Assembly (NCBI RefSeq): GCF_030824455.1
Contig: NZ_JAVBXR010000095.1
Span: forward strand, 1 to 64,000
DNA: 64,000 nucleotides
Source of the DNA: Desulfobulbus sp.
GTDB taxonomy: Bacteria; Desulfobacterota; Desulfobulbia; Desulfobulbales; Desulfobulbaceae
Direction of reading: 5' to 3'
The translations under genes and the position numbers were made by a program. Shown one piece after another: positions 36,660 through 39,434 of this stretch. Position 1 is the first letter of the stretch. The number at the start of each line of letters is the position of its first letter. The notes under the pieces were generated by a model that was not told the origin of the DNA, made no database searches, and was given only the letters and a program-made list of their open reading frames with translations.

Positions 36660-38459
36660 ATGGATCAGCAGTTTATTCGTAACGTCGCCATTATCGCCCA
36701 CGTTGACCATGGCAAAACCACGCTTGTCGATCAATTGTTCCGTCAGAGCGGCATGTTCCGCGACAATCAGCAGGTGGCGGAACGATTGATGGATTCCATG
36801 GACCTGGAACGTGAGCGCGGCATCACTATTGCCTCGAAAAACGGCTCCTATATTCACGGCGACTATCAGATCAACATCATCGACACCCCTGGTCACGCCG
36901 ATTTCGGCGGTCAGGTCGAGCGGGTGCTGCGCATGGCCGACGGCGCGGTGCTGCTGGTCGACGCCCAGGAAGGCCCGATGCCGCAGACCTTTTTCGTGGT
37001 CAAGAAAGCCCTGGCGGCCGGCCTGCCGATTCTGGTGGTGATCAACAAGATCGACAAGCCTGCGGCGCGCTGCGACTGGGCGGTGGATCAGGTGTTCGGA
37101 CTGCTGGACCGCCTCGACGCCCCGGACGACATTCTCGATTTCCCGGTGGTCTACGCCTCGGCCAAGGCCGGATTTGCCGTCACCACCCCGGACGCCGAGG
37201 TCACGCCGCTCACCGGCATGCACGCGGTCTCCGACATGATCGTCAAACACGTGCCGCCGCCGGCGGGCGATCCCAACGCGCCGCTGCAGCTGCAGGTCAA
37301 CACCATTGATTACTCGCCCTATTTGGGCCGCTTGGGCATCGGCAAGATCGTCAACGGCAGCCTCAATCTGCGCACGCCGCTGGCTGTGGCCCGGCTCGAC
37401 GGATCGATCGGCCCGGTGCGGATCAATAAAATCTTTGGCTACTGCGGCGACCAGAAGGTGCCGGTGGAAAGCGCTTCGGTCGGCGACATTGTCGCCCTGG
37501 CCGGCATGGACGACGTCACCGTGGGCGTCACCTTCACCGATCCGGTCAATCCCCAGCCCCTGCCGCTGATCGTGATTGATCCGCCCACCATTTCGATGAA
37601 CTTCATCCCCAACGACTCGCCCTTTGCCGGTCAGGACGGCAAGTTCGTCACCTCCCGCCATCTGGAAGAGCGGCTCTCTCGGGAGACGCTGGCTGACGTG
37701 GCGCTGCAGGTCGAACCGCTGACCGACGCGGTCGGCTACCGGGTCTCCGGGCGCGGCGAGCTGCATCTCTCCATTCTGATTGAGAAAATGCGGCGCGAGG
37801 ATTACGAGTTCCAGGTCACCCGGCCCCAGGTGATCATGCGCGAGGTCGACGGCAAGACCCTGGAACCCTACGAGGAGTTGTCGGTGGACGTGGACGAGCA
37901 GTATCAGGGCGTGGTGATCGAAAAGCTGGGCAAGTTGAAGGGCGTGCTCGAGGACATGCAGGTGGAAAAATCCATGACCCGGATGAAATTCAAGGTGCCC
38001 ACCCGCGGCCTGCTCGGATATCGTTCCACCTTCATGACCGACACCCGCGGCATGGGCGTGATGAATTACATCTTTGCCGAGTGGGGTCCCTATGCCGGCG
38101 AAATCCAGAATCGGGTCAACGGGGTGATGATCGTCAAAGAGCCGAGCACCACCGTGGCCTATGCCCTGTTCAACCTGCAGGACCGCGGCCGGCTCTTTCT
38201 CGGACCGGGAATCGACACCTATCCAGGGATGATCATTGGCGAACATTGTCGTCCGGCCGACCTGATCGTCAATCCGGCCAAAGGCAAGAAACTGACCAAC
38301 ATGCGCGCCTCGGGCTCGGATGAGGCGGTTATTCTCACCCCGCCGGTTGACATGAGCCTTGAGGAGTGCATTGCCTACATTAACGACGACGAGTTGGTGG
38401 AGATCACCCCTAAAGCCATCCGCTTGCGCAAGAAGAAGGACGCCAAGATTCGCGGCTAG
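36660..38459 (+). CDS. typA: Ribosome-associated GTPase TypA/BipA
   Basis: This 599-residue translational GTPase has G1 IAHVDHGKTTL, the switch I region RERGITIASKN, G3 DTPGHADFGGQVER, G4 NKID and G5 SAKAG, then domains II, III and V and the BipA-specific C-terminal domain (NMRASGSDEAVILTPP). It binds 70S ribosomes and helps 50S assembly under stress. Length matches the family. A 212-base gap upstream, rich in pyrimidine tracts, presumably holds its promoter but none is clear. Confidence 0.95.
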   Translation: MDQQFIRNVAIIAHVDHGKTTLVDQLFRQSGMFRDNQQVAERLMDSMDLERERGITIASKNGSYIHGDYQINIIDTPGHADFGGQVERVLRMADGAVLLVDAQEGPMPQTFFVVKKALAAGLPILVVINKIDKPAARCDWAVDQVFGLLDRLDAPDDILDFPVVYASAKAGFAVTTPDAEVTPLTGMHAVSDMIVKHVPPPAGDPNAPLQLQVNTIDYSPYLGRLGIGKIVNGSLNLRTPLAVARLDGSIGPVRINKIFGYCGDQKVPVESASVGDIVALAGMDDVTVGVTFTDPVNPQPLPLIVIDPPTISMNFIPNDSPFAGQDGKFVTSRHLEERLSRETLADVALQVEPLTDAVGYRVSGRGELHLSILIEKMRREDYEFQVTRPQVIMREVDGKTLEPYEELSVDVDEQYQGVVIEKLGKLKGVLEDMQVEKSMTRMKFKVPTRGLLGYRSTFMTDTRGMGVMNYIFAEWGPYAGEIQNRVNGVMIVKEPSTTVAYALFNLQDRGRLFLGPGIDTYPGMIIGEHCRPADLIVNPAKGKKLTNMRASGSDEAVILTPPVDMSLEECIAYINDDELVEITPKAIRLRKKKDAKIRG

Positions 38460-38483
38460 ATTTTTTATTCCCAGGGAGGCGGC

Positions 38484-38645
38484 ATGAAAGAATTGCTCAT
38501 GGTTGTTGCGGCGATTTTGACCGGTGTTGCCGTCTTTGCAGTGATTGTCAGGCGGTCAGGGGGCGATTGTCTCCCCTGACTGCTGCTCTACGGCTCCGCA
38601 GGTGCGGGGCTCGTTGTCTATGCGGTGTTGAAGACCCTCTTCTGA
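38484..38645 (+). CDS. Tiny two-helix membrane protein with in-frame TGA; candidate selenoprotein or nonsense-mutated gene
   Basis: An ATG at 38484, after a strong GGGAGG ribosome binding site, opens 31 codons with a transmembrane helix (LLMVVAAILTGVAVFAVIV) and the end GDCLP, then TGA at 38577. The same frame continues for 21 codons as a second helix (LLLYGSAGAGLVVYAVLK) to TGA at 38643. The TGA sits in a CLPU (CxxU) context. A GC-rich hairpin with loop AGGU (stem 38592-38599 with 38604-38611) begins 12 nt after it, apical loop 20 nt away, as in bacterial SECIS elements. Alternatives: a TGG-to-TGA mutation, or a 31-residue product only. It lies 24 bases after typA. Confidence 0.4.
38592..38611 (+). 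promoter_or_regulatory. Candidate SECIS-like hairpin
   Basis: GGCTCCGC and GCGGGGCT form an 8-bp stem including two G-U pairs around the loop AGGT. The apical loop starts 20 nt after the in-frame TGA at 38577-38579. The E. coli fdhF element has the loop AGGUCU 17 nt after its UGA. In GC-rich DNA such hairpins also arise by chance. Confidence 0.35.
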
Positions 38646-38657
38646 GCTTGCGCGCCG

Positions 38658-39434
38658 ATGCCGACCCGTACACCCGACCCCCTGTTTGCCCTGGACGATC
38701 CCGTGTCCCTGATCCGCGCCCGGATGCAGGAAAAACGCCTCTTTGAGGCGCGGTTTCTCTGTCGGCAGTTGGTGGGGGAGATCGGCGCAAGTGAAAAAAA
38801 GGCGTTGGAGCGAGAGCTGACCGGGCTGTTGACCCAGGTCGAGCAGTTGCGGCGTCAGGCCCAGGCGCTGGTTGCCGACGGGCGCAGGGAGCAGGCGGCG
38901 GCGGTGTACGGCGAGATCGCCGCGATTGCCATTGATGTGCCGGGGGTGGCGGAGGAACAACGCGCCCTGGAAGGCGCCGAGGCTCTTGTTGCCCGGATCG
39001 CCGGCAAAACGGGGCCGTTGGAGCGGCCGGATCTGGAGCCGACCCCTCGTGTCGATGTTCAGGCGCAGGCGTCGACGGTTGACGACTCGCCGCAGGCTCC
39101 CCCAAAGCAACAGCAACCTGGAAGGCTTGTCTGGTTGGCCGTTTCGCTGCTGGGGATTCTGGCGCTGCTCGCGCTGCTGGTCTGGCGCGTCGGCATGCAC
39201 GCCTCGGCGCCCCAATCCACTACTCCCCCTCCGGCGGCGCAGACGATCACTATCCGGCCGCTGGACCTTCCCCCCCCTGCTGTTGAGCAACCGCAGCAAT
39301 TGCAGCAAGTTCAGCCGCTGCAACAGGCAGCGGAGCCGGTCGTTCCGCTCGCTGAGCCCGAGAATGTTCCGGCTCCTCCCTCCCCCTCCCTTAAGCTGGG
39401 AACCCTGCAGGTGGAAGACGCCGAGCGTCGGTAG
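38658..39434 (+). CDS. Hypothetical single-pass membrane protein, Pro/Gln-rich
   Basis: The product is 258 residues: an N-terminal helical, charged region (about 15-115, with heptad-like LTQVEQLRRQAQALV), one transmembrane helix (LVWLAVSLLGILALLALLVW, about 155-174) and a low-complexity Pro/Gln/Ala tail (PQQLQQVQPLQQAAEP). The topology suggests a cytoplasmic coiled-coil domain tethered to the inner membrane with a periplasmic linker. I do not recognise a family. It starts 12 bases after the tiny two-helix frame and probably shares its transcript with typA. Confidence 0.65.
   Translation: MPTRTPDPLFALDDPVSLIRARMQEKRLFEARFLCRQLVGEIGASEKKALERELTGLLTQVEQLRRQAQALVADGRREQAAAVYGEIAAIAIDVPGVAEEQRALEGAEALVARIAGKTGPLERPDLEPTPRVDVQAQASTVDDSPQAPPKQQQPGRLVWLAVSLLGILALLALLVWRVGMHASAPQSTTPPPAAQTITIRPLDLPPPAVEQPQQLQQVQPLQQAAEPVVPLAEPENVPAPPSPSLKLGTLQVEDAERR

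Follow-up and report, generated by a model that had tools for sequence, protein, structure and literature searches.

Among the closest described systems are the SelB/SECIS selenoproteins of the E. coli FdhF type, in which an in-frame UGA is followed 16-37 nt downstream by a hairpin with a G-rich apical loop and selA, selB and selC are present. The gene family described here has the same arrangement, and in one of its lineages the loop reads GGUCU, letters that lie within the fdhF loop AGGUCU (as quoted in the first-pass annotation of the locus). The predicted protein is nevertheless unrelated in sequence to FdhF-type selenoproteins, has only 53 residues and would lie nearly entirely in the membrane. 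Its C-x-P-U motif resembles the CxPC of thioredoxin and other CxxC/CxxU oxidoreductases and, as in these, caps the N-terminal end of a helix in the structural model, but the family has neither the thioredoxin fold nor a thioredoxin match in Pfam or NCBIfam, and the capped helix is transmembrane. The FeoB-associated Cys-rich membrane protein (PF12669) is likewise small and membrane-bound, with cysteines that follow a helix; it has one helix and more cysteines than the new family, in which it gives only weak, chance-level matches (3 of 64 members, best E 0.017). Small membrane proteins with a CxxU-type motif at the membrane also include the Sec-containing putative mercuric transport protein (PF02411, C/SxxU; PMC13188914), to be considered with MerF and MerE. 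The new family has no Mer match and only one Cys and one Sec.

Two hypothetical selenoproteins reported by deep-Sep, DG and DF (PMC12013277), were predicted in Desulfosediminicola, whose genomes are inferred to carry the present gene. DG has a different motif (GUxG), DF lacks homologues with a TGA elsewhere, and NCBIfam, which catalogues both, has no match to the new family. The 2025 deep-Sep screen covered D. flagellatus, D. ganghwensis, Desulfolithobacter dissulfuricans GF1 and Salidesulfovibrio onnuriiensis IOR2 (PMC12013277). The gene is present in all four genomes inferred to be those strains (G127, G128, G052 and G774), and it corresponds to none of the new proteins that Table 3 of that study lists. 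The deep-Sep authors state that their method may discard selenoproteins without Cys homologues (PMC12013277), which explains how the gene was missed. More broadly, 64 diverse members gave no confident match in Pfam or NCBIfam, and PHROGs gave only chance-level matches. The 2026 catalogue of 119 prokaryotic selenoprotein families (PMC13188914) contains no two-helix CxPU protein in its Table 1 and no obvious counterpart, although this comparison was limited to open-licence literature and an earlier description elsewhere is not ruled out.

A candidate selenoprotein gene downstream of typA

The window is a 64,000-nucleotide stretch of a draft genome (4.03 Mb, 127 contigs). The gene and its associated features, all on the forward strand, are as follows.

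36660..38459, + strand: typA/bipA, the upstream neighbour, ending 24 nt before the ATG of the selenoprotein gene
38473..38479, + strand: Shine-Dalgarno sequence agggagg, read from the sequence
38484..38645, + strand: putative selenoprotein gene, 53 codons plus stop, from reading, homologues and selection on codons
38487..38558, + strand: predicted transmembrane helix 1, residues 2-25, from the AlphaFold model and Kyte-Doolittle hydropathy
38568..38579, + strand: C29-L-P-U32 motif (CxPU), codons TGT CTC CCC TGA, the TGA at 38577-38579 being Sec32
38571..38639, + strand: predicted transmembrane helix 2, residues 30-52, from the AlphaFold model and hydrophobicity, with CxPU at its N-terminal end
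38592..38611, + strand: putative SECIS hairpin, 8-bp stem 38592-38599/38604-38611 and loop AGGU 38600-38603, from folding, covariation and synonymous-codon nulls

The predicted product is MKELLMVVAAILTGVAVFAVIVRRSGGDCLPULLLYGSAGAGLVVYAVLKTLF, where U corresponds to the TGA at 38577-38579 and the terminal TGA is at 38643-38645. The first-pass annotation had pointed to a strong ribosome binding site before an ATG (38484), a TGA in a CLPU context and a second hydrophobic stretch in frame up to the next TGA, and all are read here in the same way; a GGAGG-like site also stands 6-8 nt before the ATG in most members of the genus. An open run of 21 codons after a TGA is not in itself improbable. The case that the TGA and its downstream frame exceed chance comes from the recurrence of this TGA in homologues from two classes and from the conserved pairing of the hairpin.

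The TGA is retained across two classes

With the protein as query, 59 of the 74 genomes of the same family were found to have a full-length homologue (35-71% identity) that carries a single in-frame TGA, at the same codon. A class-wide search with a profile built from 27 members matched 212 of 258 genomes, including 135 of the 149 good ones; 21 of 27 genomes from another family of the order were matched too, with the TGA retained. A second class, taken to be Desulfovibrionia since Salidesulfovibrio falls in it by inferred genome identity, was matched in 65 of 347 genomes, with TGA in all of the true matches listed. About 50 weaker matches of the class search fall outside those listed; many of the genomes concerned were covered by other searches, all with TGA. 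Among the true matches listed, every one has TGA at this position, none has Trp and none has Cys. A single-protein query against named organisms matched only one MAG. One genome (G161; loci L085 and L086) has three copies of the gene, two of which have an identical score on separate contigs; all three keep the TGA.

The homologues are 51-58 residues long, and their true second stops lie at a constant distance. The 110 distinct proteins translated from the DNA all have C at -3, U at 0, Y at +4 and G at +10; 99 of them have P at -1, and 99 have a single Cys. The pattern used to collect these proteins itself demanded C, U, Y/F and G at those positions, so the independent evidence for invariance is that the profile searches returned no exceptions. 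As far as sequences can tell, this family, common to most Desulfobulbales and to many Desulfovibrio-like sulfur bacteria, is almost certainly a selenoprotein family.

No Cys homologue was detected in 258, 395 and 347 genomes of the phylum of the window (overlapping sets; other phyla lay outside the profile search). The phylum search left a clear gap between true matches (E <= 1e-13, with TGA) and chance matches (E >= 0.002), and candidate Cys homologues with E values of 0.002-0.05 were rejected as partial chance matches. No homologue was found in plasmids by tblastn; a match in a Serratia plasmid was rejected, as it sits within an Nramp transporter. An IMG/VR match (L177) was judged to be due to chance, being a 51-base match without a plausible frame. 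The first-pass annotation had expected Cys or Sec homologues; the Sec homologues were found, while the absence of Cys homologues from the phylum searched is itself unusual. Two results that it had named as adverse, homologues with Trp at the TGA and homologues lacking the second helix, did not materialize: every homologue read has helix 2. We lean slightly towards an obligate-Sec family, without a Cys counterpart anywhere, near-universal in Desulfobulbales and common in Desulfovibrionia, with a core redox job that sulfur cannot replace. Cys homologues may nevertheless exist in phyla beyond that of the window.

Purifying selection on both sides of the TGA

Codon 32 is TGA in all 66 sequences compared, none of which has an in-frame stop in the 21 codons that follow. 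Comparison of close pairs gives a pN/pS of 0.255 downstream of the TGA and 0.384 upstream of it; the two alternative frames give 0.84 and 2.55. The codons past the TGA are thus under purifying selection and are better conserved than those preceding it.

A conserved hairpin with the geometry of a bacterial SECIS element

Published limits for bacterial SECIS elements (PMC13188914) are a distance of 16-37 nt from the UGA and a G within the first two positions of the loop. The hairpin of the window falls within these limits and proved to be exactly as first proposed, with eight pairs, the loop AGGU and 20 nt between UGA and loop; its predicted energy is -13.6 kcal/mol. Applying a cut-off of -7.5 kcal/mol or below, a SECIS-type hairpin is predicted in 73 of 110 genes, against 8.2 +/- 3.0 in synonymous randomisations; the remaining genes have weaker or longer-loop hairpins. 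Stem pairing at the register of the window averages 7.20 of 8 pairs, against 5.41 +/- 0.14 in a null in which the proteins were fixed and the codons re-drawn from the own usage of each locus (an excess of 12.6 sd).

In a gap-free alignment of 64 distinct sequences, 89.8% of the stem cells are paired, and pairing falls to 35-57% (maximum 57.4%) when the partner is slid by 1-3 columns. Both sides have changed in 47 stem cells, compared with 11.7 +/- 6.4 in shuffles, and the covariation score was reached by none of 500 shuffles. Many of the compensatory changes are at silent third positions (GGC..GGG to GGA..GGT, and TCC..G to TCT..A or TCG..C). Synonymous divergence is also lower across the hairpin (pS 0.24) than just past it (0.60). 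Judged by these nulls and shuffles, the hairpin is selected as an RNA.

The 8-pair register is not universal, as the minimal hairpin differs among lineages. Most Desulfobulbaceae-type genes have a loop NGGN 20 nt past the UGA, another lineage (L080, L096, L102, L104, L116 and L135-L140) has the loop GGUCU at 27 nt, and in the genes linked to rubredoxin the loop is GGUC, 17 nt from the UGA. The SECIS element has thus moved in evolution while the UGA stayed; GGUCU at 27 nt and the AGGU type at 20 nt represent a switch of SECIS register inside one gene family. No Rfam family matches the window stretch.

Selenocysteine machinery in the host and its relatives

A search for selA, selB and selC, proposed in the first pass, found all three in the genome of the window (selA 617 bits, selB 361.6 bits, tRNA-Sec 72.1 bits). 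Two distinct tRNA-Sec genes are present in this genome (72.1 and 58.1 bits), and ARAGORN assigns the anticodon TCA to each; one tRNA-Sec gene per genome is usual. They are located at:

1501-1598 (L060, G000:C122): tRNA-Sec gene
1498-1594 (L061, G000:C90): tRNA-Sec gene

Gene and machinery also tend to be lost together. All five genomes of one genus (g11) lack both the gene and selA, and selB is missing in all three of its genomes tested, while selB is present in eight of eight tested genomes that carry the gene. Across the class, 19 genomes lack both the gene and selA, compared with 8 expected (Fisher p 1.7e-5), a joint absence due in part to incomplete assemblies. In many drafts, the distance from selA to the end of its contig is no more than a few hundred bases.

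Four complete or near-complete carriers (G114, G118, G127 and G128) have no selA detected at E <= 1e-40; selB was found in all of them (L128, L130, L129 and L125). Two of these, G127 and G128, are inferred to be the selenoprotein-rich strains Desulfosediminicola flagellatus IMCC35005 and D. ganghwensis IMCC35004, for which 46 and 45 selenoproteins have been reported (PMC12013277), so the failure to detect selA is probably due to the search itself or to a masked stretch.

Predicted structure and topology

The AlphaFold model comprises two helices (residues 2-25 and 30-52) and is of moderate confidence, with a mean pLDDT of 70.9 and a pTM of 0.41. The best 18-mer of helix 1 has a mean Kyte-Doolittle score of 2.50 over the 110 family proteins; helix 2 is hydrophobic too and is found in every one of them. 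The mean net charge is +1.6 in the loop, -0.1 at the N-terminus and +0.8 in the C-terminal part. By the positive-inside rule, the positive loop and the CxPU motif are probably cytoplasmic; the topology in which CxPU, at the start of the modelled helix 2, probably faces the cytoplasm is thus an inference. No significant match was found in the PDB by Foldseek or by sequence.

The gene has no constant neighbour

typA lies upstream in 42 of 71 loci (automatic ORF count) and is replaced by other genes elsewhere, mtnA lies downstream in 13 of the 71, and in Desulfovibrionia the neighbours are mazG, rubredoxin in some genomes, or unrelated genes. In the absence of a constant partner, no function was inferred from the neighbourhood, and the proposed redox role rests on the motif alone. 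Downstream of the selenoprotein gene, the window encodes a hypothetical protein of 258 aa (38658-39434) with a coil-rich N-terminus and one transmembrane helix, and some 20 related loci have this protein in the same place. One genome (L147/L172) has a rubrerythrin-like gene about 0.5 kb upstream of the selenoprotein gene, and in another (L120/L156, G296:C1:49200-56400) the stop of a rubredoxin gene is directly followed by the selenoprotein start codon.

A putative membrane selenoprotein and its possible roles

We propose, with a probability of roughly 0.93, that the window gene encodes a new, tiny (51-58 residues in the family) two-helix membrane selenoprotein, for which there is no protein-level proof of selenium. 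This was one of two alternatives left by the first-pass annotation, and it is supported by the homologues, the selection on codons, the hairpin and the presence of selA, selB and tRNA-Sec. Comparison of genomes establishes the conserved UGA, the selection on either side of it, the selected RNA hairpin and the Sec machinery; Sec insertion, topology, redox role and substrate are inferences that such comparison does not demonstrate. SelB and Sec-tRNA would decode the UGA at 38577-38579 as selenocysteine, guided by the hairpin at 38592-38611. The product would form a helical hairpin in the membrane, with CxPU at the N-terminal end of helix 2 beside the positive loop.

The position of C-x-P-U at the N-terminal end of a helix matches the geometry by which thioredoxin-type motifs lower the pKa of the attacking residue. 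Our best guess is therefore a membrane selenol redox protein, in which a reversible selenenylsulfide between Cys29 and Sec32 would support membrane-bound selenol/thiol redox chemistry and could serve to reduce a disulfide, a persulfide, a peroxide or a membrane partner. As it is inferred from the motif alone, we give this role only even odds.

Two other roles for the selenoprotein are possible, each considerably less probable than redox catalysis. Cys29 and Sec32 may serve to bind or transport a soft metal or metalloid (Hg, Cu or selenide) in the manner of Mer proteins; MerF and MerE are similar in size and two-helix architecture. A Sec-containing mercuric transport protein is among the listed selenoproteins (PMC13188914). 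The absence of a Mer-family match in Pfam, of a second Cys pair (a single Cys being the rule in the family) and of recognised mer genes nearby in the loci read makes this unlikely. Alternatively, the protein could belong, as a small accessory subunit, to a larger membrane enzyme such as a respiratory or sulfur-metabolism complex. Proteins of 50-60 residues with one or two helices are often subunits, the best match in Foldseek, although not significant, is an Mrp antiporter subunit, and in one genome the gene directly follows that of rubredoxin. There is no conserved operon partner, however, with typA, mtnA, mazG and others alternating, and this role also appears doubtful.

Explanations without selenocysteine fare much worse. 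The UGA could be read as another amino acid (for example Trp, by a near-cognate tRNA), the hairpin acting as a generic readthrough signal rather than as a SECIS element. Readthrough signals downstream of UGA C do exist, and C directly follows the TGA in 58 of the 66 sequences. Nonetheless, the hairpin geometry and G-rich loop match the bacterial SECIS model, and the CxPU motif, the presence of selA, selB and selC, and the joint absence of the gene, selA and selB in genus g11 leave this reading very improbable. Still less credible is that the gene consists of only the 31-codon frame up to the TGA, with the downstream helix a product of chance: a TGA normally terminates and the 31-aa form has one transmembrane helix, but the purifying selection downstream is confined to this frame, helix 2 is conserved in 110 proteins and the second stops keep their distance. 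A minor role of the truncated form under selenium limitation is not excluded. Finally, the other alternative of the first-pass annotation, a TGG-to-TGA nonsense mutation that broke a 53-residue protein, is permitted only by the sequence in isolation and is excluded by the TGA in all listed homologues of two classes, none of which has Trp.

Implications

Standard annotation takes the UGA for a stop and so cuts a 53-aa membrane protein short. Although about 90% of the good Desulfobulbales genomes (135 of 149) carry the gene, it appears to have been overlooked, as pipelines filter on Cys homologues and annotators cut at the TGA. According to the deep-Sep authors, every known selenoprotein now appears to have Cys homologues (PMC12013277); this family seems to break that rule, which makes it notable. 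This suggests a hidden class of small Sec-only proteins, and with this family the reasons for retaining Sec can be tested cleanly. Being nearly universal in sulfur-metabolising anaerobes, the family points to an important, as yet unknown, membrane redox step.
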